From: Clostridia bacterium
GTDB taxonomy: Bacteria > Bacillota_A > Clostridia > Christensenellales > UBA1242
Length of the DNA: 8,831 nucleotides
Direction: 5' to 3'
Assembly (NCBI GenBank): GCA_028701635.1
Contig: JAQVQJ010000045.1
Span: 1-8,831 of the forward strand
Both the position numbers and the translations under genes were made by a program. The notes beneath the pieces were generated by a model. It worked only from the letters and a program-made list of their open reading frames with translations. It ran no database searches and was not told the DNA's origin. This document shows positions 324 to 8,831 of the stretch, piece after piece; positions within the stretch are counted from its first letter, which is position 1, and each line of letters opens with the position of its first letter.

Positions 324-731
324 GTGCCAGATAAGACTCCCGAATATCCCATAATGAAGAAAGGTGCTGGAGAACTCCAGCATAAAATCCTTTCTTATTG
401 GTGGGAACAAACAGGTGATATAGATATGATACTCACCTTTGTTGCTGAGAACGGAATGGTTACGCTTGACCGATACTCTACTTTTAGAGGACTTGACGGC
501 AACAGAGGTGTAGGACTTTGTCAGATGTATGAAACTTGGCACAGTGACTTCATTTACAAGAACGGAAATAAGTCTGAGGGGTTCTCAGATGAAATGCTTG
601 ATTGGAAGACTCAAGCAGACCGTTGTATCGGTATCTGGCAAGACGCTAAAGCCAGAAAAAGATTACAACAAACTTTTCACGCTTACTCTACAAGAGAGAG
701 AGCAAGAAAGGTTCTAATTTTTAATTTTTAA
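324..731 (+). CDS. endolysin, lysozyme/lytic-transglycosylase-like
   Basis: This 135-aa protein appears to be a compact lysozyme-fold muralidase that cleaves the glycan strands of peptidoglycan at the end of infection. Features visible are FVAENG with a candidate catalytic Glu42, the GNRGVGLCQM segment (residues 59-68) that fits the G-x-x-Q-like second motif of SLT/lysozyme folds, W72-H73, and a C-terminal TFHAY motif (117-121). Cys66 and Cys101 could pair. There is no signal peptide, so it would need a holin or another export route; the small membrane proteins downstream are candidates. I chose the GTG at 324 because of the purine-rich site upstream; the in-frame ATG at 354 would remove ten residues and leave the domain intact. 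The last codons (VLIFNF, stop) are themselves written in the T-rich leader of the next gene. GC content (about 43%) is far above that of the following genes. Confidence 0.78.
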   Translation: MPDKTPEYPIMKKGAGELQHKILSYWWEQTGDIDMILTFVAENGMVTLDRYSTFRGLDGNRGVGLCQMYETWHSDFIYKNGNKSEGFSDEMLDWKTQADRCIGIWQDAKARKRLQQTFHAYSTRERARKVLIFNF

Positions 732-735
732 AACT
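718..735 (+). promoter_or_regulatory. T-rich start-proximal motif (copy 2)
   Basis: TTTTTAATTTTTA occupies 718-730, followed by AAACT and the ATG at 736. It overlaps the last four codons and stop of the endolysin gene, so the same bases serve as coding sequence and as the leader of the next gene. Confidence 0.55.
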
Positions 736-915
736 ATGAAATACACTTTAAATATTGTTCTTATAATGTTATTATTTTTTTTTGTATTTTTTATAATTGG
801 AATATCTATTTATGGTTCAATTAAAATAAACGAAAACTTACAAAAAAAAAATAATTTCAACGAAGAACAATTTAAAAAAAACTTCTTTGATAATTATAAC
901 GGAAGAAAACTTTAA
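736..915 (+). CDS. 59-aa single-pass membrane peptide
   Basis: A short reading frame runs from ATG (736) to TAA (913-915). It starts MKYTLNIVLIML, has one strongly hydrophobic, Phe-rich membrane segment (about residues 7-28), and then a polar Lys/Asn-rich tail ending NGRKL. The case that it is real rests on the T-rich leader placed exactly 5 nt before the ATG, the orderly membrane-then-polar layout, and its neat fit between the endolysin and the next gene. The Lys at position 2 and the charged tail suggest the N-terminus is outside or the protein sits like a small class III holin or antiholin, but orientation is uncertain. It is directly downstream of an endolysin without a signal peptide, which makes a lysis role plausible. 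No family recognised. Confidence 0.62.
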   Translation: MKYTLNIVLIMLLFFFVFFIIGISIYGSIKINENLQKKNNFNEEQFKKNFFDNYNGRKL

Positions 916-940
916 TTTTTATACCTTAATTTATAAAACT
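911..940 (+). promoter_or_regulatory. T-rich start-proximal motif (copy 3, variant)
   Basis: TTTAATTTTTA at 911-921 overlaps the stop of the 59-aa gene. A second, weaker copy (CTTAATTTATA) begins at 925, followed by AAACT and the ATG at 941. The AAACT-ATG junction is the same as in copy 2. It is the basis for choosing the start at 941 rather than an upstream in-frame ATG at 887, which would lie inside the previous gene. Confidence 0.45.
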
Positions 941-1123
941 ATGTATATTTTACTATATTTTATATTCCTATTTATAGGAATAATAAACGCAATACTATAT
1001 CCTGTTGCAACAATAACTATGATTTCAGTTATAGCAGGTTTATATTTTGTTTGTTCTTCTTTAAAAGAAGAGAAAGAAGCAAAAAAAACTTTTAAATACT
1101 GGGCAAAAAAAGCCCAGAAATAA
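941..1123 (+). CDS. 60-aa two-pass membrane protein, holin candidate
   Basis: The protein has 60 residues with two adjacent hydrophobic segments (about 2-19 and 21-40) separated by a short turn (NAILYP), then a strongly basic tail (KEEKEAKKTFKYWAKKAQK). Two membrane segments plus a charged cytoplasmic C-terminus is the layout of class II holins, which open the inner membrane to an endolysin made without a signal peptide. The endolysin lies two genes upstream. A longer reading from an ATG at 887 is possible but would overlap the previous gene by 29 nt and leave the leader motif inside coding sequence, so I prefer 941. The holin role is inferred only from size, topology and context; other small phage membrane proteins look alike. 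The end of the gene contains a perfect 6-bp inverted repeat (1099-1117). Confidence 0.65.
   Translation: MYILLYFIFLFIGIINAILYPVATITMISVIAGLYFVCSSLKEEKEAKKTFKYWAKKAQK
1099..1117 (+). other. small perfect hairpin at gene end
   Basis: CTGGGC (1099-1104) and GCCCAG (1112-1117) form a perfect 6-bp stem around a seven-A loop. It encodes part of WAKKAQ and is the most GC-rich spot for several hundred bases. No U-tract follows directly (AAATAATTTACTTTTT), so it is not a standard intrinsic terminator. It may stabilise or pause the transcript between the 60-aa and 65-aa genes. Confidence 0.35.
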
Positions 1124-1152
1124 TTTACTTTTTAATTTTTACTTTTATGAAA
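1124..1152 (+). repeat. exact 29-bp repeat, copy A (partner at 2529-2557)
   Basis: The 29 bases around the start of the 65-aa gene, from TTTAC through the leader motif to ATGAAA, are identical to those around the start of the 90-aa gene at 2529-2557. Such a long exact match spans both leader and first codons. It suggests duplication or strong selection on the whole initiation region. Confidence 0.7.
1129..1146 (+). promoter_or_regulatory. T-rich start-proximal motif (copy 4)
   Basis: TTTTTAATTTTTA at 1129-1141, CTTTT, then the ATG at 1147. This is a full-consensus copy lying inside the exact 29-bp repeat. Confidence 0.6.
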
Positions 1153-1344
1153 AAAGATTTGTATTTTGCTATCATTATTATTTGTTTTTTAATTTTTATT
1201 GTTTCATTTAATATTTCTAAATTTATAATTATAAACACAACTGAATACAGATGTTACTCAGAAGATACAGAAGATACAAAACAATTAACTTATTGTGAGG
1301 AGTACGGATTCGGACCGAACTCATCACAATGCGGTGAACAATAA
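1147..1344 (+). CDS. 65-aa membrane-anchored protein with Cys-containing outer domain
   Basis: Residues 5-23 form a hydrophobic, Ile-rich membrane segment preceded by MKK, so the C-terminal part is probably outside the cytoplasm. A second Ile-rich patch covers 26-30. The outer part holds three cysteines (36, 50, 62) in a short acidic domain of about 35 residues containing an EDTEDT repeat. The DNA there is a 9-bp direct repeat, GAAGATACA twice, at about 1263-1280. An odd number of outer cysteines leaves one free for an intermolecular disulfide or metal. No lipobox is present. The start is set by the full-consensus leader. No family recognised; a cell-surface role in the infected cell is possible but unproven. 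Confidence 0.6.
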   Translation: MKKDLYFAIIIICFLIFIVSFNISKFIIINTTEYRCYSEDTEDTKQLTYCEEYGFGPNSSQCGEQ

Positions 1345-1350
1345 TTTTAT

Positions 1351-1367
1351 TTTTTAATTTTTATTTT
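1351..1367 (+). promoter_or_regulatory. T-rich start-proximal motif (copy 5)
   Basis: TTTTTAATTTTTA at 1351-1363, TTTT, then the ATG at 1368. Full-consensus copy with a 4-nt spacer. There is no Shine-Dalgarno sequence. Confidence 0.6.
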
Positions 1368-1682
1368 ATGGAAGAAGAAACACTTTTAGATGCTAATTGT
1401 GATGTATTAAAAGGAGAAGATAAACTATTCTTTAAAAAAACTTGGAGCATTATAATGAGATACTGTGAAGATTATAGTGTTAAAGACCCTTCTGGAACAG
1501 AAGCAACTCTTATTTTTTTATTTTTCAGAAGAATATTAAAAAAAATTATTCCAAAAAAAGAAAAATATTATGATTCAGAATGTGGGTGTGGGTGTTCTAT
1601 ATGTTCACAGATAAAAACTCACAATGATTTAATTGATAAAATAAACGAAAGAGCAAAGGAATATTTTGGTAGTGATTTTTAA
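1368..1682 (+). CDS. 104-aa Cys-rich protein of unknown function
   Basis: The protein has an acidic start (MEEETLL), a mixed helical middle with one aromatic/hydrophobic stretch (about 46-61, flanked by Arg and Lys), and a striking cysteine cluster ECGCGCSIC (residues 71-79, Cys72, 74, 76 and 79). Cys11 and Cys33 lie upstream. The cluster is too tight for a normal CxxC zinc ribbon but could hold a metal ion or a redox pair; the C-x-C-x-C-x-x-C spacing is the thing to search with. A helical tail (NDLIDKINERAKEYF) follows. The hydrophobic patch is short and flanked by charge, so a membrane segment is doubtful. The stop lies inside T-rich sequence 28 nt before the next start. No family recognised. 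Confidence 0.6.
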   Translation: MEEETLLDANCDVLKGEDKLFFKKTWSIIMRYCEDYSVKDPSGTEATLIFLFFRRILKKIIPKKEKYYDSECGCGCSICSQIKTHNDLIDKINERAKEYFGSDF

Positions 1683-1710
1683 TTTTTTATTTTTTAATTT
1701 ATTTATTTTT
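1676..1710 (+). promoter_or_regulatory. T-rich start-proximal motif, double copy (copy 6)
   Basis: Two copies lie in tandem: TTTTTAATTTTTT at 1676-1688, overlapping the previous stop, and TTTTTAATTTA at 1691-1701, 9 nt before the ATG at 1711. They decide the start at 1711 over an in-frame upstream ATG at 1666 that lies inside the previous gene. Confidence 0.5.
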
Positions 1711-2505
1711 ATGAAAATAATATTAAACGATGAACAATCTCTCGTTAAGCAGATTGAATTGCCTGAATTTGTTCAGGCATTAAAACTTGAACTTCAAAAT
1801 CAAGTAGAATTTTCAAAAAGTCTTGAAATAAAAGATTTTCAGGATTCAAGACAAATTGAAATAGTCCAGAAAACAAAAACTTTATATGTTACAAACAGGA
1901 ACACTATTAAAAGAGCTTTTAAATCTAAAAGAGATGAATGGAACAAGTTATCAAAAGATAACATAAAACTTCAAGATGATATTTTAAAAGTTATAGAAGA
2001 AGAAGAAGAAAGATTAGAAGAAATGCTTGAAAAAGCAAAACTTCTAAAACTAAGAAAAGAAAATGCTTCAAAACTTGAAGCAAGAAAAGAAGAACTGCTG
2101 AAATATGAAGCAGTTCTTTCTGATGAAGAACTTTTAGAAATGAATGAAGGAGCATATCTTGGTATTTTAAAACAATTAAAAGAAGAATTTATTTTAAAAA
2201 AAGAAAAAGAACTTGAAGAAGAAAAACAAAGAATTGAACGAGAAAAAGAACTTGAAGAAGTTAGAAAAAAAGCAAAAGAAGAAGCAGAACAAGAACAAAT
2301 TGAAAGAGAAAGAAAAAGAATTGAAACAGAAAAACAACAAGCAGAACAAAAAGAACTTGAAGAAGAACGAGTAAAAAATAACTTTAAGTTTCAAGCTTTT
2401 TTGAAACAAAACAATTTTGACTCAAAAACTATGGAATGGAAAAAAATAGGAGATAAAATAGAAATATGGACTCTCCCACAAAAAATTGCTGAAATAACAT
2501 TTTAA
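1711..2505 (+). CDS. 264-aa coiled-coil phage protein, possibly DUF1351-like
   Basis: An N-terminal part (about 1-85), with KTKTLYVTNRNTIKRAFKSK and DEWNKL, leads into a very long charged coil (about 88-225) built almost only of Glu, Lys, Arg and Leu. It ends in a small folded C-terminal piece (about 226-264) with several aromatic residues (FKFQAFL, MEWKKIG, IEIWTLP). This architecture resembles the DUF1351-type proteins found in the recombination/early regions of many phages, where a helical N-terminus carries a KR-rich stretch followed by a coil. That resemblance is by eye only, and no RecT/Bet partner is present in the window. The E/K repeats may form a single stable alpha-helix rather than a true coiled coil. 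GC is about 25%. I chose the ATG at 1711 because the leader motifs lie just before it. Confidence 0.72.
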   Translation: MKIILNDEQSLVKQIELPEFVQALKLELQNQVEFSKSLEIKDFQDSRQIEIVQKTKTLYVTNRNTIKRAFKSKRDEWNKLSKDNIKLQDDILKVIEEEEERLEEMLEKAKLLKLRKENASKLEARKEELLKYEAVLSDEELLEMNEGAYLGILKQLKEEFILKKEKELEEEKQRIEREKELEEVRKKAKEEAEQEQIERERKRIETEKQQAEQKELEEERVKNNFKFQAFLKQNNFDSKTMEWKKIGDKIEIWTLPQKIAEITF

Positions 2506-2528
2506 ATATGAAAAAAGAGTCACTTAAT

Positions 2529-2557
2529 TTTACTTTTTAATTTTTACTTTTATGAAA
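2529..2557 (+). repeat. exact 29-bp repeat, copy B (partner at 1124-1152)
   Basis: Identical over 29 bases to 1124-1152, covering leader and first codons of the 90-aa gene. The sequences diverge immediately on both sides. Confidence 0.7.
2534..2551 (+). promoter_or_regulatory. T-rich start-proximal motif (copy 7)
   Basis: TTTTTAATTTTTA at 2534-2546, CTTTT, then the ATG at 2552. Full consensus with a 5-nt spacer. Confidence 0.6.
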
Positions 2558-2824
2558 TACGATTTACTTTTAAAAAAATGTGATGCTCTAAGAAAAAAAG
2601 CAGAGTACCACAAAAAGAAAACACACGAACTAAAAATACAAAAAAAGCAGGATGATTTTCAAATTGAATCTTGGAAAAATTCTTATAAAAAACTTTCAAA
2701 ACAATATGAATTTCAAGTATTTGAAAACGCAAAAATAGAAGATAAATACAAAGACAATCTGTATTTATTGCTTTTTGTAAATATCTTCACTTTGGCAATG
2801 CTTATATATACAGTATGGATATAG
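2552..2824 (+). CDS. 90-aa coiled-coil protein with C-terminal membrane anchor
   Basis: Residues 1-68 are Lys/Glu/Gln-rich and helical (LLLKKCDALRKKAEYHKKK and onward), very likely coiled coil. Residues 70-89 (LYLLLFVNIFTLAMLIYTVW) form a clear membrane segment at the extreme C-terminus. The protein should therefore be tail-anchored with its coil in the cytoplasm. This is also the topology of the 112-aa gene facing it from the other strand. It is the last gene of the plus-strand block: TAG at 2822-2824, then a terminator hairpin 14 nt later. An XhlA-like or holin-accessory role is possible, but I cannot assign it to a family. Confidence 0.68.
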   Translation: MKYDLLLKKCDALRKKAEYHKKKTHELKIQKKQDDFQIESWKNSYKKLSKQYEFQVFENAKIEDKYKDNLYLLLFVNIFTLAMLIYTVWI

Positions 2825-2837
2825 TATTGTACATCAT

Positions 2838-2871
2838 CGAGCGTATTATTTACTATACGCTCGCTTTTTTT
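2838..2871 (+). terminator. intrinsic terminator of the plus-strand block
   Basis: A perfect 9-bp stem CGAGCGTAT (2838-2846) / ATACGCTCG (2855-2863) with an 8-nt loop is followed by C and seven T (2865-2871). The opposite strand has no U-tract after the stem, so it acts on the plus strand only. It closes the run of genes from 22 to 2824. Confidence 0.9.
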
Positions 2872-2890
2872 ATAAAAACAGCAGAATTTA

Positions 2891-2919
2891 TTATTGATAA
2901 TTTCTGAAAATAGTATACT
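2891..2919 (+). promoter_or_regulatory. possible promoter of the island RNA
   Basis: A good -10 hexamer, TATACT (2914-2919), would start transcription near 2926. The best -35-like hexamer, TTGATA (2894-2899), is only 14 nt away, shorter than the usual 16-18; at the normal distance there is only TTATTG (2891-2896). The main argument is position: the previous transcript ends at 2871, so the structured region downstream needs its own start. Confidence 0.35.
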
Positions 2920-2925
2920 CTAAAT

Positions 2926-3077
2926 AAGAGATTATCTCGGTTTTAGTTGAGCGTTCTTACTAACATAGGTATTAACCGACTAAAACAAAAAATAATTGAA
3001 CGCTCTCTATAACATAGTAGAGAGCTGATTATTACATCTTTTTTTCGGTGTAAAAGGACTCTTATGAGTCCTTTTTT
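2926..3077 (+). ncRNA. structured small RNA with H-type pseudoknot (putative, novel)
   Basis: About 150 nt lie between two terminators and fold almost end to end. In order: a small hairpin GAGA/TCTC (2928-2938); helix A, GTTTTAGT (2940-2947) with ACTAAAAC (2979-2986); helix B, GAGCGTTC (2949-2956) with GAACGCTC (2998-3005), interleaved with A so that the two form an H-type pseudoknot. Loop 1 is one nt and loop 3 (2987-2997) is A-rich, both geometrically ideal. Hairpin C, GCTCTCTA (3002-3009) / TAGAGAGC (3018-3025), shares four bases with B. Hairpin D, TTACATC (3032-3038) / GGTGTAA (3047-3053), has a U-rich loop. The final element is a terminator. TAACATAG is the loop of hairpin C and sits inside loop 2 of the pseudoknot. 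No matching Rfam family comes to mind. The structure is read directly from sequence; an RNA role and plus strand are inferred. Confidence 0.5.
3052..3077. terminator. bidirectional intrinsic terminator
   Basis: AAAAGGACTC (3052-3061) and GAGTCCTTTT (3066-3075) form a perfect 10-bp stem with a TTAT loop and six T (3072-3077) on the plus side. On the minus strand the stem is followed by TTTTA. It would end the island RNA on the plus strand and the virion block on the minus strand, and it overlaps the stop codon of the 112-aa gene. Confidence 0.85.
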
Positions 3078-3414
3078 AAATGAAATACTTACTGAAAAAA
3101 GCAATAACAGCAAATCCGCCTAACATCTTCCACTTGAGTTTTTCTATATCTTGGATTTTCTGAAACATCTCTATGTTTTTATCTCGTAATCGTGACACTT
3201 CAAGTTTAAGTGGGTCAATTTTAAGAGCAAAACTTATCTGGTCTTCTTCCTTGTGTTCTTTAAAACCCTCTTTTATCAATAGGGAAAATTTGTCTGGTAG
3301 TTCTGAAAGAAGTTTTGCTGTTTTTTCTTGTGAAGATTTGATTTCATTGATTTCGCTTGATATAGACTCAAAACGAGTTTCTAAGACGAGTATTTTTTTT
3401 TCTTCTTTAGTCAT
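3076..3414 (-). CDS. 112-aa coiled-coil protein with C-terminal membrane segment, XhlA/holin-like
   Basis: Residues 1-95 are charged and heptad-like (LVLETRFESISSEINEIK, then KLEVSRLRDKNIEMFQKI), predicting a coiled coil. Residues 95-112 (WKMLGGFAVIAFFSKYFI) form a short C-terminal membrane segment. This resembles the XhlA (hemolysin/holin-associated) family, whose members have an N-terminal coil running into a KW-containing membrane segment and work with a holin and an endolysin. The usual XhlA is somewhat shorter. It is the last gene of the minus block and its TAA overlaps the bidirectional terminator. The leader before its ATG lacks the T-rich motif (AAATAAAAAATATG) and contains a 36-bp tandem repeat instead. 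Alternatives are a virion-associated or spanin-like anchored coil. Confidence 0.68.
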   Translation of the reverse strand: MTKEEKKILVLETRFESISSEINEIKSSQEKTAKLLSELPDKFSLLIKEGFKEHKEEDQISFALKIDPLKLEVSRLRDKNIEMFQKIQDIEKLKWKMLGGFAVIAFFSKYFI

Positions 3415-3422
3415 ATTTTTTA

Positions 3423-3500
3423 TTTAATAAAATTTGTTTTGCGAGTTTTCTTTTTTTGTTTAATAAAATCTTTTTTACGAGTTTTTTATTTTTGTTTAAT
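3423..3500 (-). repeat. 36-bp tandem repeat upstream of the 112-aa gene
   Basis: Two adjacent 36-bp units (3423-3458 and 3459-3494) match at 31 of 36 positions, and a third partial unit (TTTAAT, 3495-3500) follows. Each unit starts TTTAATAAAAT and carries a central CGAGTTTT. On the minus strand the units lie 9-81 nt before the ATG at 3414, so they form most of this gene's leader. They do not encode a continuous peptide. A regulatory or binding function is possible; replication slippage is the simple alternative. Confidence 0.75.
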
Positions 3501-3531
3501 TCTTTATTAAAATTATCAATATACTGTAAAA

Positions 3532-3747
3532 TTAGTTATTATTATTTATTTCTTTTTCTTCTGGAGTTATTTGTAAAGTTCTTTCTGTTTCATATTTCTT
3601 TTCTTCTTTTCTTAAATTAGAGAGAGTCTCTTCATTTATTTCTTCTAAGTTTGAAAGCATATAATAACCGTTTATAACTTCTTCTAAAGGTCTTTTAGAT
3701 ATATATTGTATAAGTGCATCTCTTTGTTCTTTCGAAATCAAAAACAT
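3532..3747 (-). CDS. 71-aa small phage protein of unknown function
   Basis: The N-terminal half, ISKEQRDALIQYISKRPLEE (residues 4-23) followed by VINGYYMLSNLEEI, is a compact helical segment. The pattern K-E-x-R-D-A-L-x-x-Y-[IL]-x-x-[RK]-P-x-x-E-V is one I associate with small proteins near the virion genes of many phages; function unknown to me. The C-terminal half is a charged, disordered tail ending in four Asn. There is no membrane segment and no Cys. It is the only minus-strand gene here with the T-rich leader (TTTTTTAATTTTA, then 5 nt, then ATG), so it may be expressed separately from the large virion genes upstream. The spacing is 25 nt from the 76-aa gene and 117 nt to the 112-aa gene. 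Confidence 0.65.
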   Translation of the reverse strand: MFLISKEQRDALIQYISKRPLEEVINGYYMLSNLEEINEETLSNLRKEEKKYETERTLQITPEEKEINNNN

Positions 3748-3765
3748 AATAATAAAATTAAAAAA
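3748..3765 (-). promoter_or_regulatory. T-rich start-proximal motif on the minus strand (copy 8)
   Basis: On the minus strand, TTTTTTAATTTTA (3765-3753) is followed by TTATT and the ATG at 3747. It has the same sequence and spacing as the plus-strand copies, showing the motif belongs to gene starts and not to one strand or one operon. Confidence 0.55.
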
Positions 3766-3772
3766 TATGTAC

Positions 3773-4003
3773 TTAAAATATATACTCTACAAGCCGTTTT
3801 GTCAATATTATACAATACCAAAAATATGCACTATCAGGGTCTGTTACTGATTCATCATCTACATACTCGTGTGTTACTCCGTATGCTCCTACTTTTAAAA
3901 TTTTACTAATTCCTTTGTTAGTATCATTTACATCATTCAAATCTGATAAATTGAATTCATCATTGTTTGCGTATCCTTTTGTTTGTATTGAGAGAATAGT
4001 CAT
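3773..4003 (-). CDS. 76-aa protein of unknown function in virion block
   Basis: The ATG at 4003 is only 4 nt after the TAA of the 955-aa gene, so translation is probably coupled. Residues 1-50 are polar, with an NDEFNLSDLNDVNDTNKGISKI stretch followed by a short beta-like piece (LKVGAYGVTHEYVDD). The rest, VTDPDSAYFWYCIILTKRLVEYIF, is aromatic and partly hydrophobic but too interrupted by charge for a clear membrane segment. No signal peptide. I do not recognise a family. Its place between a large virion protein and small late genes suggests a minor virion or assembly component, and its abrupt hydrophobic C-terminus could also mean it is the remnant of a longer protein. Confidence 0.6.
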   Translation of the reverse strand: MTILSIQTKGYANNDEFNLSDLNDVNDTNKGISKILKVGAYGVTHEYVDDESVTDPDSAYFWYCIILTKRLVEYIF

Positions 4004-4007
4004 TTAG

Positions 4008-6875
4008 TTATTTTTTTAATTTCCACCTGTCTTTGATTATTTGTTCAAGTTGGGATTTGGTTTCGGCATAATTTTTTTCAATAATATTTCTGCTTTCTAT
4101 TTCTCCACTCCATTTATAATTTTGGTCAAATAATTCTTTGTATCTATCTGGGATTTCAACTCTTTCCGGACGCATATTGTTTTTGTACATTTCGTCATAA
4201 ACATAAAATTTAATAGGTGAAGGATATTCAAAGTCGCTAAAACTATTTTCTTTCAATTTCTGACCCCAGTACATCATATGGAAACTTACTTGCCCATTAG
4301 GTGTTTCAAAATATACGACTGGAACAGAGTTTTTTCCATATTTAGTGTTTATTTTATCAAAACCGATCTTAACTGGTTTTTTATTTTTAATTGATATGTC
4401 AATTGCTTCTTCTATATATTTTGTTTTTTCACCATAATCAGGAAGAACATTATTTCCAAATGAATCAGGATTTCTCATCCTTTTTTGCAGTTCATTATAA
4501 TTAGGTAATTCTTTAGAAATTTCTGAAAATACGCTACTATGATCTTTATCAAACTTATTTGCATCACTTATAATTTGTGCTTTTAGTAATTTTTCATTCA
4601 ATTGATTATTTTCATTCACAAACTCATCAATAGCCTCTTTCTCGGTTTTAGCTTTAGATATTATTTCATCTGCTTGTTTGGTTAAAGAGTCGTCAGCTTT
4701 TGACACTGTGGCAGGTTCCGCCATACTAAAAGGTATTTCATCTGTTTCTCTAATAGTATCAATTTCTTTTTTAGAAATTTTTTCTTTTGTTGGTTTTAAT
4801 AAAGGAGTATTATCTACATCATCAACAGTAAACCCTTTACCAACAGATTTTCCTTTTGCTTTTTCTTCAATAATAATCTCTGCCATTTTTCGAGCTTCCT
4901 CTTTGTTTCTTGTTGCTCTTATTAAGTTCTGCTCTTCTCTGCTTAAAGGAGCAAGATTTTCAGTTACAAATCCTTCTCCCATTTTAGTACCAGATTTAGA
5001 AAGCTCGTCTGCGTAAATAGCGTTTATCTCTTGTAACTCTTTTGCTTTAATTACATTATTTTCAAATTCTTTTGCTTTCTTAATTATATTCTCTAAATCA
5101 GCTTTAGGCATACCCTTATATCCTTCTGCTCCTCGTCTATACTTACTCAACATTCTTGCTCCGAATGCTTGTACTGTTTCAGTAGTAAGAACTTTCTTCA
5201 TTCCAAACATTGATAAAAAACTTGGATCCATTAAAGCAGGTGATAAAAATATATGATCAGTAAGAGAAAGAAAATTATTAGAGGCTTGTCCTATCATTCT
5301 TCCTGCTAAAATATCAGAGGCTTCTCTGCTTGCAGATAATTCTTTCTGAATTTCTCTTAAATTTGTATATCCTGATTCATCAGCTTTATCAATAATAAAC
5401 TCTCTTATAGCATTATCTCTTGAAGTATTAAGTTGTCTTATATCAGAACCCTTAGATAAATCTCCTTTATCTGCAATAGCAACATCTCTCTCAAAAGTTC
5501 TTTTGATATCGTTTATTTCTGACAAAGTTAAACCTTCTCCGTCAAGTTTGTTTTTGTATTTTACAAATTTTTGTAGTTTAGCAGAACCAACCTTATCACC
5601 TTTAGCAGTAGTTTTACTTAATCTACCTACTAAATCATCAAGAACCTCTGAAACTTCTGGAGTAGCCCTGAATTTATTAGGTATACTTTTCAACGCTTCA
5701 TCTGATTCTTTCATTAAACTTTGCCACCTTTTAACAAGTTCTTCGGTAGATTTATACCTATTATATATAATACCTCTTTCTTCCATAAAATCTGATAATG
5801 TAGAACCAAATTTATTATTAAAATCTTTTAGTTGGCTTGGAGTAGCTTTATTTACTCTTGCCAAAACAGAAGACTCAAGAGAACTTTTTTTCAAATTCCC
5901 TTTACTGTTAAATGTTAATCCGTTTTTAGTGGCGTTTTCTATTACTTCTGGATTAAGTGACCTTGTTAAAAATTCATTGTCAAAACTTGAATCTTTAGCA
6001 AATTTAGTGTTTATTTTATCTAATACTTTACTATAAGTACCAGTCAATAAATTTTTACTTGATTGTAACTCGTTTGCTAATATTCCAGCACCTTTTTTAG
6101 TTACCACAGGCAATGTATCAATAATGTTTACAATCCCTTCTTTAGTAGAAGGACTTAAAGAATTCCACTCTTTTATAATCTCTTTACCTGTACTTGTAGA
6201 AGCAAGTTTATATAAAGTATTTTGAACACTTGGCTCAATTGCTCCAAAAACACCTGATACTGTTGCTCCAACTGGAGTTATCCCTCCAGCTGTTGTAGTA
6301 AGACCAGCACCAAGCCTCGATATTCCCCTAAATAATTGCCTTGCTCTATTTTTTAAATCTCTTCCTTCCTCTGCAATAAATCTTTCTTCTCCTTGTTCCG
6401 TATCAATTATAGATTCAGGACTAAAAGTTTGTGCAATATCCTGTAATCCTTCTCCTGCTTTTTGTACACCATACTTTGCAATATTAGGAATTGCTTTTAC
6501 TCCTTCAATTCCTCTGTTTATTGCTTCAAGTCCTATTGCTCCAGCAGATTGTGCTTGTGCTTTAATTAAATTACCAAAAGCGTCAAAATGCTCACCCTGA
6601 CTCTTTTGTTTTTTTACCTTTTCCATTGTATCACTAAAAGAAACAGCTAAATTTTCAGCCATTGATAAATCAAGCTCTTCTGGTTCAATATATGACATAG
6701 AAGAAATTTCAACATCATTAGAAAACTCAGGATTTGCTGAAATAAATTTTGTTACTAATTCTCTGTTATCCCAGTCTTTATATTCTGGGGATTTGGTTTT
6801 TAAGATATTAGCAAACTCAAATACTTTAAGTTTTTGTTCTGGTTCTTTATTAGTAAGTTGTTTAAATCTTCCCAT
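4008..6875 (-). CDS. 955-aa putative internal/ejected virion protein
   Basis: This large multi-segment protein follows the CHAP-containing virion gene after a 13-nt gap. Segments: an N-terminal PEYKDWDNRELV (30-41) of the kind seen near the start of phage internal proteins; an Ala/Gly-rich amphipathic region (about 104-150); a Gly-rich hydrophobic stretch (about 183-215, SRLGAGLTTTAGGITPVGAT), which could insert in a membrane; a long helical body (about 280-530) with GLTLSEINDIKRTFERDV and later a LREIQKELSASREASDILAGRM segment; a hydrophobic patch (536-575); a charged coil (590-770); and a separate C-terminal module (about 775-925) rich in aromatic and beta-prone residues. The layout fits internal virion or polyvalent proteins ejected with the DNA. 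No enzymatic motif is certain. The start lacks both the T-rich motif and a Shine-Dalgarno site; coupling to the upstream stop is likely. Confidence 0.75.
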   Translation of the reverse strand: MGRFKQLTNKEPEQKLKVFEFANILKTKSPEYKDWDNRELVTKFISANPEFSNDVEISSMSYIEPEELDLSMAENLAVSFSDTMEKVKKQKSQGEHFDAFGNLIKAQAQSAGAIGLEAINRGIEGVKAIPNIAKYGVQKAGEGLQDIAQTFSPESIIDTEQGEERFIAEEGRDLKNRARQLFRGISRLGAGLTTTAGGITPVGATVSGVFGAIEPSVQNTLYKLASTSTGKEIIKEWNSLSPSTKEGIVNIIDTLPVVTKKGAGILANELQSSKNLLTGTYSKVLDKINTKFAKDSSFDNEFLTRSLNPEVIENATKNGLTFNSKGNLKKSSLESSVLARVNKATPSQLKDFNNKFGSTLSDFMEERGIIYNRYKSTEELVKRWQSLMKESDEALKSIPNKFRATPEVSEVLDDLVGRLSKTTAKGDKVGSAKLQKFVKYKNKLDGEGLTLSEINDIKRTFERDVAIADKGDLSKGSDIRQLNTSRDNAIREFIIDKADESGYTNLREIQKELSASREASDILAGRMIGQASNNFLSLTDHIFLSPALMDPSFLSMFGMKKVLTTETVQAFGARMLSKYRRGAEGYKGMPKADLENIIKKAKEFENNVIKAKELQEINAIYADELSKSGTKMGEGFVTENLAPLSREEQNLIRATRNKEEARKMAEIIIEEKAKGKSVGKGFTVDDVDNTPLLKPTKEKISKKEIDTIRETDEIPFSMAEPATVSKADDSLTKQADEIISKAKTEKEAIDEFVNENNQLNEKLLKAQIISDANKFDKDHSSVFSEISKELPNYNELQKRMRNPDSFGNNVLPDYGEKTKYIEEAIDISIKNKKPVKIGFDKINTKYGKNSVPVVYFETPNGQVSFHMMYWGQKLKENSFSDFEYPSPIKFYVYDEMYKNNMRPERVEIPDRYKELFDQNYKWSGEIESRNIIEKNYAETKSQLEQIIKDRWKLKK

Positions 6876-6888
6876 TTGTTAAAAGTTA

Positions 6889-8831
6889 TTAAATACCACC
6901 TGTAAAATTAAAATCATTAGGATCAAATCCGTCATCTAATAATTCTTGTTTAAGACTTTGAATATCTTCTCCAAACTCTATTGCTCTTGTTATTTCATTT
7001 TGTATATCCATCCTCTCTGATATACCCAATTTACTAAACTCAATAGACTCTTTAAGAAGTCCAAAAGAATCATTAAGATTTATCTTTTTTTCTTCTGCTT
7101 CTTCTAAATCTTCAACCTCAAATTCTCCTTTATCGTTTAGACCAAGTTGACTATATAAAAAGTCTTTAGGAACACCTGAACCATCTGCTTTTCTCTCTGC
7201 TTTTGCTCTTTCTGTATAAAATCTCTCTTTTGCACCTTTCATCAATGCGTTAGCAATAGATATACCTGCTTCTCTTGTTTCATCAGTTAATCCAGAACCA
7301 CCTTTAAACACTTTAATTGACGCTCCAATAATCCTATCAGATAAACCTAAACTTTTACCTGTCCTGTCGTATTCTGATTCTCTTACAACTGAATTAGGAT
7401 CTGTAATTTTATTAAATAAATTTATTAAAGCCTGATCAGAAAATGTTTTATCACCAATCTTTTGACCTTGCTTATAAGCAACCTCCATTTGCTTAAATTT
7501 ATTAAGAATTTCTTCATAATCTGAAACACCTTTCTCAAAATCATTTTGTATTTTTTCAGACCTTGGTAAAAACTTTTTTCTTTCAACTTCTTTTATAACT
7601 TCTTCAACATCACCACCAGACTTAACAGTATTTGCCAAAGCCTCTTTCATTGATTTAGACACTTGAGTACTTTCTCCTGCCATTGCTCTATTAAATCTTT
7701 CTTCCTGTTCTTTTGTCAATCCATTTTTAGAAATTATCCCTTTTTTTATGTCTTGTATAGGAGAATAAAACCCTACAACTGATTCACCTGACTTAGAATA
7801 TAAAGAATCTTTAGAAACTGTTCTTCTGTTTACTTCTTTATTTCCGTATCTGTTGCTATCTACAATCGTAAAAGTTCCATCATCATTTACTGATTCAATA
7901 AATCCTATATGTCCGTAGTTTCCTGCACTGCTTAAATCAGAAATGAAAACATCTCCTGGCTTAGGGTTTGCATATTTATTTATCTTCTGCATTTTGCTTT
8001 CTAAACTACTTGAGAAATATCCAGCAGGTAAACCAGAAATATCGTTTACAAAGGCAGAACACTCTCCCTCAAAACTCTGATCTCTTCCAGCTGGTCTCTT
8101 TGCAACATCGCCACTTTTTAAATTAGCAAGTAAATTTATAGAATTCTCTTCTCCGTAAGCACTGTAAATATCATTTAAAGAATTCTTTATTTCAAGGTTT
8201 TTTAGCTTCTGTTCTTCTGTTTGAGCATTCTTATAGTTTATCTCAGCTTTTTTCATTTGTATATCAATAGGACTCATTTTCTTTTCAGATAATCCTAACT
8301 GAACTTTTAATTCATCTGCACCTTCTTTTGTCAAAGAACCATTCAAAACAGCTTTATCAATAGCATTTAAATTAGCTAATACCTTATCTGCTTCTGTTTG
8401 ACTTTTATTAAATAAATCTTGTTTTAAAGATTTAATTCTTATCATTTTTTCTTCATCTGTTATTTTTTTGTCTTCTAAGATAGACTTAGCACTCGCCGAT
8501 AAACCAGAAGCAATTAAAGGGTCAATTTCAGCTCCTAAAGAAGAAAAAAAAGAAGTTATACCTTGTTCTCCCATTGCACTTAATGCTTCGGCAGGTAAAG
8601 AAGAAATAGTTGATAACGCTCTATTGTATGATTGGTCTGATAGTTGTTGTGCTATGTTTTGTTGTCGTAGTTTTTCGTTCTCTAATTCTGTAATTTCTGC
8701 TTGTTTAGATTGTATAAAAGACCTACTCCCAGCATTCTGTGCGTCTTGTAGTTCTTTTCTTTTCTGTTCAATTAACATATCAAAATCAGACATTGCAATC
8801 TGGTTTTGTTCTCTCTGATAATTTATTCCTT
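6889..8831 (-). CDS. virion-associated CHAP peptidoglycan hydrolase, 5'-partial
   Basis: The frame stays open to the window edge. The first ATG inside is at 8793 (634 aa), but the twelve full codons before it (GINYQREQNQIA) contain no stop and no leader motif precedes it, so the gene probably starts outside. Numbering from that ATG: a helical tape-like region (1-205), a CHAP domain (about 225-345) and a helical C-terminus (360-630). CHAP enzymes cut peptidoglycan peptides using a Cys-His pair. Here GECSAF gives Cys245, KPGDVFI (278-284) is the usual strand motif, GNYGHIGFIESV gives His295, and VDSN (311-314) supplies the third polar residue. The DPNSVVRESE motif (465-474) is typical of phage virion proteins carrying wall-degrading domains. 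Likely a tail or internal protein that opens the wall during DNA entry. It is the first gene of the minus block visible here. Confidence 0.85.
   Translation of the reverse strand, partial: GINYQREQNQIAMSDFDMLIEQKRKELQDAQNAGSRSFIQSKQAEITELENEKLRQQNIAQQLSDQSYNRALSTISSLPAEALSAMGEQGITSFFSSLGAEIDPLIASGLSASAKSILEDKKITDEEKMIRIKSLKQDLFNKSQTEADKVLANLNAIDKAVLNGSLTKEGADELKVQLGLSEKKMSPIDIQMKKAEINYKNAQTEEQKLKNLEIKNSLNDIYSAYGEENSINLLANLKSGDVAKRPAGRDQSFEGECSAFVNDISGLPAGYFSSSLESKMQKINKYANPKPGDVFISDLSSAGNYGHIGFIESVNDDGTFTIVDSNRYGNKEVNRRTVSKDSLYSKSGESVVGFYSPIQDIKKGIISKNGLTKEQEERFNRAMAGESTQVSKSMKEALANTVKSGGDVEEVIKEVERKKFLPRSEKIQNDFEKGVSDYEEILNKFKQMEVAYKQGQKIGDKTFSDQALINLFNKITDPNSVVRESEYDRTGKSLGLSDRIIGASIKVFKGGSGLTDETREAGISIANALMKGAKERFYTERAKAERKADGSGVPKDFLYSQLGLNDKGEFEVEDLEEAEEKKINLNDSFGLLKESIEFSKLGISERMDIQNEITRAIEFGEDIQSLKQELLDDGFDPNDFNFTGGI

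Follow-up and report, generated by a model that had tools for sequence, protein, structure and literature searches.

A candidate phage RNA presenting one bulged hairpin twice between converging gene blocks

Here we describe a candidate plus-strand noncoding RNA of roughly 150-190 nt, with its predicted 3′ end at terminator hairpin E (3052-3077), in the intergenic island (2872-3077) of an 8831-base stretch of DNA with a low GC content (29%). This stretch, which we call the window, appears to be an entire contig, as its 634-aa protein is itself listed on a contig of 8831 bases. We read the island, at a probability of roughly 40%, as an orphan phage small RNA that presents a protein-binding hairpin twice and whose function would be to occupy that protein. 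The RNA body would be a tandem pair of one hairpin type, consisting of a lower stem, an asymmetric internal loop (UUGARC / YGA), an upper stem and the hexaloop AACAUA, so that an RNA-binding protein, most probably dimeric, would meet the same bulged hairpin in two places. The RNA may then act by occupying this protein as a sponge, decoy or antitoxin-like ligand, and its stems and terminator would keep it stable. The regulatory or decoy role that an earlier, sequence-only reading of this DNA had predicted is possible.

By its gene layout and the relatives of its proteins in IMG/VR, the contig probably comes from a virus of bacteria, that is, a phage. The predicted genes form a left block on the plus strand (22-2824) and a right block on the minus strand (3076-8793), which converge, and the island lies between their final genes. 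As judged from their sequences, one lipoprotein-like and one lysozyme-like protein stand at the start of the left block; neither gave anything over a curated cut-off, Pfam included. The row of lipoprotein-like, lysozyme-like and small membrane proteins at 22-1344 resembles a lysis module. The right block includes a 634-aa protein (6889-8793) with a CHAP domain (Pfam) and a 955-aa protein. A T-rich leader (TAATTTTT ... ATG) precedes many start codons at the place where an obvious Shine-Dalgarno sequence would stand, which possibly hints at the host or the mode of translation. The features referred to below are as follows.

2552..2824, plus strand: 90-aa gene, final gene of the left block (gene prediction)
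2838..2870, plus strand: T1, terminator hairpin followed by a T run, downstream of the final gene of the left block (hairpin 2838-2863 from the terminator scan, 9 pairs, 5 of them G-C; -12.7 kcal/mol)
2896..2936, plus strand: H0, 10-bp hairpin with TATACT in its loop (6/500 shuffles fold equally well)
2914..2919, plus strand: TATACT, -10-like by sequence, with no -35 at proper spacing
2940..2986, plus strand: U1, first bulged-hairpin copy, 47 nt (bulge 2950-2952 AGC; loop 2962-2967 AACATA; 2/500 shuffles fold equally well)
2949..3005, plus strand: helix B (2949-2956 with 2998-3005), joining equivalent 5′-arm segments of U1 and U2 and competing with the U2 hairpin
2991..3033, plus strand: U2, second bulged-hairpin copy (bulge 2999-3001 AAC; loop 3011-3016 AACATA; 0/500 shuffles fold equally well)
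3034..3051, plus strand: D, short, weak 5-bp hairpin (-2.6 kcal/mol)
3052..3077, plus strand: E, terminator hairpin AAAAGGACTC/GAGTCCTTTT and T run (10 bp, arms 3052-3061/3066-3075; -13.2 kcal/mol on the plus and -12.6 on the minus strand)
3076..3414, minus strand: 112-aa gene, final gene of the right block (gene prediction), its stop codon adjoining hairpin E
2-23, 715-746, 1133-1150, 1355-1370 and 2538-2555, plus strand, and about 3760, minus strand: T-rich leader sites

The two-copy architecture of the island is apparent both from a repeat search, which found a direct repeat at 2944-2968 and 2993-3017 (76% identity over 25 nt, copies 49 nt apart), and from the minimum-energy fold, in which the repeat copies occupy the equal position in two consecutive hairpins, U1 and U2. 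Each unit folds as a bulged hairpin (the folding program models no pseudoknots), and the two align with zero internal gaps in a common layout of lower stem, UUG, bulge ARC, 9-nt arm, loop AACAUA, 9-nt arm, YGA and lower stem. The 5′ halves are identical at 19 of 27 bases in this register, versus 3-9 at the 24 other offsets tried, and the 3′ halves at only 7 of 17 positions. Pairing is kept by changes on both sides: 17 of 19 pairs are kept in each unit, and seven pairs differ on both sides. When the partners are slid by 1-3 columns just one or two such pairs are left; column shuffles reach the observed pairing values in 1 of 500 cases, and random change at the same 22 columns reaches the pair count of U2 with P 0.00055 (20,000 draws). 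This covariation comes from two copies only and the structure was derived from those same copies, so these controls lean towards the twin-hairpin structure. Of 3000 shuffled islands, 21 held one hairpin of the U1/U2 layout and none held two, and a scan of 80 phage loci (1.21 Mb, both strands) gave 89 single matches and no adjacent pair, the layout scored in both cases having been defined after the data were seen. Plain self-similarity of the island is equalled by 52 of 500 shuffles; because it is so common, the argument is carried by the coincidence of the repeat with the hairpin register. The 5′ arm, the bulge and the hexaloop are the parts least altered between the copies, which fits the expectation for a binding surface; a protein may be bound by the loop together with the internal loop. 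A kink-turn-like register of the internal loop was rejected on its worse nearest-neighbour energy (-9.4 vs -12.4 and -11.7 vs -14.4 kcal/mol), its two bulged U and an extra bulged C; it would make R2951-Y2977 and A3000-U3026 co-vary, with possible tandem G-A pairs.

The fold prefers the plus strand. Against shuffled sequences, the plus-strand z score is -6.84 for 2925-3077, -6.95 for 2885-3077 and -8.54 for 2825-3077, and that of the minus strand is -4.25 (2872-3077), with 0 of 200 shuffles folding equally well in each of these four tests. All six hairpins (T1, H0, U1, U2, D and E) favour the plus over the minus strand in stability, the margin being as small as 0.4 kcal/mol for T1 and 0.6 kcal/mol for E, and the standard pairs of U1 and U2 number 17 of 19 on the plus strand and 15 of 19 on the minus strand. 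No tRNA or tmRNA was found by ARAGORN and no Rfam family reached its cut-off, in agreement with the sequence-only reading, which had recognised no tRNA, tmRNA or known riboswitch.

The same reading had taken the island for a self-contained transcription unit with terminators on both sides and a -10-like TATACT at its start. The flanking terminator-like hairpins are there: T1 with its T run lies before the island, and the 10-bp hairpin E with its T run ends it. T1 is the predicted terminator of the left block. By inspection E has the form of an intrinsic terminator at the 3′ end of the RNA, and it is absent from the terminator-scan list, we think because the stem takes up its T run; E is symmetric and can therefore also end the right block on the minus strand. 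The TATACT is likewise present, but the nearest -35-like sequence, TTGATA (2894-2899), lies only 14 nt upstream, no -35 was found at 16-18 nt from it, and a promoter scan of 2500-3500 placed no site inside the island. As a promoter was not found, what stands of the self-contained unit is a structured, apparently noncoding plus strand with terminator-like hairpins at both ends. The RNA may start on its own near 2926, or it may be a product of processing or read-through. H0 would belong to the RNA only if transcription started upstream of it. H0 and U2 have the lower-stem letters ATAATT/GATTAT in common, and H0 may represent a third, degenerate unit of this kind.

The position of the island between converging blocks, the promoter that was not found and a hairpin E usable on both strands all favour the main rival of a duplicated protein-binding hairpin, namely that this is a 3′-end region only, in which T1, E and the bulged hairpins would serve the converging operons in termination and in transcript stability or processing (e.g. 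as RNase III sites) and no separate regulatory RNA exists. In the early mRNA of phage T7, the hairpins processed by RNase III likewise have two stems flanking an asymmetric internal loop, and the two-stem hairpins of the island resemble them. In contrast to the T7 case, there is no downstream cistron to release: no plus-strand cistron of at least 60 aa starts between the island and 4600, the longer plus frames there lying inside minus-strand genes, and the conserved hexaloop is left unexplained. Moreover, T1 already ends the left block, with U1 and U2 lying beyond it; E alone would serve the right block; and termination needs no two copies sharing a hexaloop and a bulge. We regard a 3′-end region alone as somewhat unlikely, and as the strongest competitor of the duplicated protein-binding hairpin.

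The sequence-only reading had instead centred on a pseudoknot formed by two interleaved helices. Both are perfect 8-bp helices as described: helix A pairs 2940-2947 (GTTTTAGT) with 2979-2986 (ACTAAAAC), helix B pairs 2949-2956 (GAGCGTTC) with 2998-3005 (GAACGCTC), and the spacers are indeed 1 nt and 11 nt (AAAAAATAATT). An interleaved 8+8 pair within the spacer limits appeared in 4 of 3000 dinucleotide shuffles of the 206-nt island, and the observation is therefore non-random; of 200 order-1 Markov versions of the entire 8.8-kb window, scanned on one strand, 7% held at least one such arrangement. The second loop of a classical H-type pseudoknot is 0-1 nt. Here it measures 22 nt. Three further hairpins had been placed downstream, the last a terminator; terminator E is present, but the first of them (3002-3025) shares 3002-3005 with helix B, so that helix B and all three hairpins cannot form together.

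Helix A makes up eight of the ten lower pairs of U1, and helix B overlaps the upper stem of U2 by four bases (3002-3005). The question is whether a knot of the two helices could be the working fold, or one state of a co-transcriptional switch. Besides the perfection and rarity of the two helices, the weakness of the upper stem of U1 (two mismatches) speaks for this. Energetically, the nested two-hairpin fold of 2940-3033 comes to -28.8 kcal/mol and the knot to -28.6 kcal/mol (helix A -11.0, helix B -15.8, remainder of U2 -1.8) before any pseudoknot or loop cost; with the usual pseudoknot penalty of about 9.6 kcal/mol, the knot is some 10 kcal/mol worse than two plain hairpins. Forcing helix B without helix A costs 11.7 kcal/mol (-37.0 vs -48.7). 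In folding of the nascent RNA, helix B belonged to the minimum-energy fold at one of the 11 transcript ends tried (3018) and was later displaced by U2, so a brief intermediate is possible. A compensatory-change test, run between the two island copies, favours the two hairpins, helix B being single-copy. The repeat itself accounts for the appearance of a knot: GAGCGTTC of U1 pairs with the equivalent GAACGCTC of U2 because each is nearly self-complementary and the copies thus tend to pair. On these modelled energies the pseudoknot is unlikely as the final fold and possible as a short-lived intermediate, and as a working fold or switch state we consider it improbable; the apparent knot is most likely a by-product of a repeated quasi-palindromic hairpin arm.

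A DNA-level element, in which repeated protein-binding sites or single-stranded DNA hairpins would mark a replication terminus or a site of recombination or packaging, strikes us as slightly more improbable still. The quasi-palindrome GARCGYTC is repeated 49 bp apart, and cumulative GC skew peaks in 2251-3250, which includes the island; this is also where the coding strand switches, which explains the peak equally well, and the changes between the copies keep pairs within each hairpin, with the excess of standard pairs on the plus strand noted above. That the loops (CAUAG) act as antisense RNA on start-codon regions of the phage's own genes is very improbable, as the ACUAUGU before and at the start of the 941-1123 gene does match 7 nt of the U2 loop region (a match without shuffle control) but 12 of 13 genes match 6 nt or less at their starts, and an AUG-complementary loop yields such matches easily.

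Known RNAs offer several points of comparison for a twin-hairpin RNA. RCd22, from a prophage of C. difficile, is an RNA that binds the RNase AbiF and acts as its antitoxin; it carries two hairpin motifs, one of 33 nt and one of 35 nt, spaced by 19 nt and followed by a terminator (PMC12373285). The abiF RNA (RF03085) and RCd22 resemble the candidate RNA of the island in being small phage RNAs in which a tandem pair of hairpin motifs, containing an asymmetric internal loop, precedes a terminator, going by that report (PMC12373285) and by the copies we observed in phiC2. The difference is that the long side of the internal loop is 3′ in abiF (A / CAAAUC) and 5′ here, and that the letters differ. 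With the RF03085 covariance model the island was not among the matches up to E 10; in phiC2, the positive control, the model found two copies, one scoring 37.6 bits and so passing the gathering score of 37, the other only 19.5 bits. In phiC2 the abiF RNA also lies within the lysis region, between holin and abiF. Among the window proteins scanned with Pfam (10 proteins) and PADLOC (13 proteins; weak matches only, best E 0.0021), we found no known RNA-binding toxin or defence RNase as a partner, no Abi_2/AbiF (HEPN RNase) gene within the 8.8-kb contig and no type III toxin gene near the island. Membership of the abiF family was therefore rejected, there being neither a model match nor an abiF gene among the scanned proteins.

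Tandem repeated units also characterise the type III RNA antitoxins (ToxI, CptI, TenpI); here there are two units 49 nt apart, and the repeat lengths quoted for CptNI and TenpNI are 45-50 nt. Each ToxI unit is a pseudoknot, whereas both units here are predicted, by a program that models no pseudoknots, to fold as plain bulged hairpins, and Rfam gave no match to type III antitoxins. A mimic of a Cas13a repeat, which is about 36 nt long, was rejected, U1 being 47 nt long and U2 being without GACTAAAAC, the 3′ end of U1. These letters also end Cas13a repeats quoted in papers. Phage PhiTE carries toxin-less pseudo-ToxI repeats (PMC3475682), a precedent for antitoxin-like RNA repeats without a toxin, and Racrs are phage decoy RNAs made of solitary CRISPR repeat units that serve as RNA anti-CRISPRs (PMC10651486). 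The candidate RNA of the island shares with the Racrs the character of a small phage RNA possibly acting as a decoy. No published description of this twin-hairpin RNA was recognised in a literature search, which cannot prove absence.

Relatives of the RNA were sought by pattern, covariance and alignment. In IMG/VR a first pattern gave no match; a second gave 16, none with CGCTC within 40 nt downstream (0/16); and a third gave 94, representing eight core sequences, of which one representative each was folded and none formed the hairpin, so that these searches yielded no relative. A pattern search of genome contigs gave 14 matches, none of which was as well paired in both stems as U1 or U2. A U1/U2 covariance model run with default filters over the window and the 80 phage loci (1.22 Mb) recovered only the U1 of the window, a weak negative because these filters miss even U2, a training sequence. 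With the filters off, it found U1, U2 and 13 low-scoring matches in the window and, in five of the 80 loci, AT-rich ones that share the leader motif and total 78 kb, a single match of E 0.39 (in L023) that we took as noise. Alignment with blastn gave no match to plasmids and weak, short matches to phages, the best listed having E 0.9 for the hairpins and 0.05 for a wider stretch.

The neighbouring proteins have almost no relatives in the collections searched. Single queries of IMG/VR with the 6889-8793, 324-731 and 4008-6875 proteins returned none, nor did the aligned 112-aa pair in IMG/VR or the 324-731 protein in genome contigs. An alignment of the 6889-8793 protein found at least 243 confirmed loci among at least 600 candidates in IMG/VR, from which the 80 phage loci used for the layout and covariance searches were kept. 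A tblastn search of the 13 window proteins against 96 loci gave, besides this protein, one weak match (E 5e-4), in L017, for the 955-aa protein. Residues of about 440-530 of the 634-aa CHAP protein (around DPxSVVRESE) recur in at least 243 IMG/VR contigs otherwise unlike this virus. The closest protein-level relatives (P0001, 96%; P0007, 89%) lie on ENA contigs, the longest of 2914 bp. If relatives of both flanking proteins share one such contig of at most 2914 bp, their spacing would be at least 147 bp shorter than the 3061 bp of the window (354 to 3414), and the intervening stretch would thus differ.

Within the reading of the island as a phage RNA that occupies a protein, titration would be the mode of action, and the partner may be part of host defence. 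In one version, which we regard as a long shot, the phage would make a toxin-less twin-hairpin RNA that imitates the RNA bound by a HEPN or type III ribonuclease of the host, or by some other dimeric defence protein that binds RNA, and so holds that protein inactive; helix B may form for a short time during synthesis and then give way to the two final hairpins, which would time the exposure of the binding sites. Whatever its function, the island shows how an apparent pseudoknot can result, in a short intergenic region, when a hairpin with a quasi-palindromic arm is present in tandem. If transcribed, it would be a structured phage RNA without an Rfam family at cut-off, in a lineage nearly without relatives in the data searched. 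Because the RNA antitoxin of AbiF, an anti-phage ribonuclease, takes the twin-hairpin form, an orphan phage twin-hairpin RNA would be a concrete candidate for RNA-based counter-defence.
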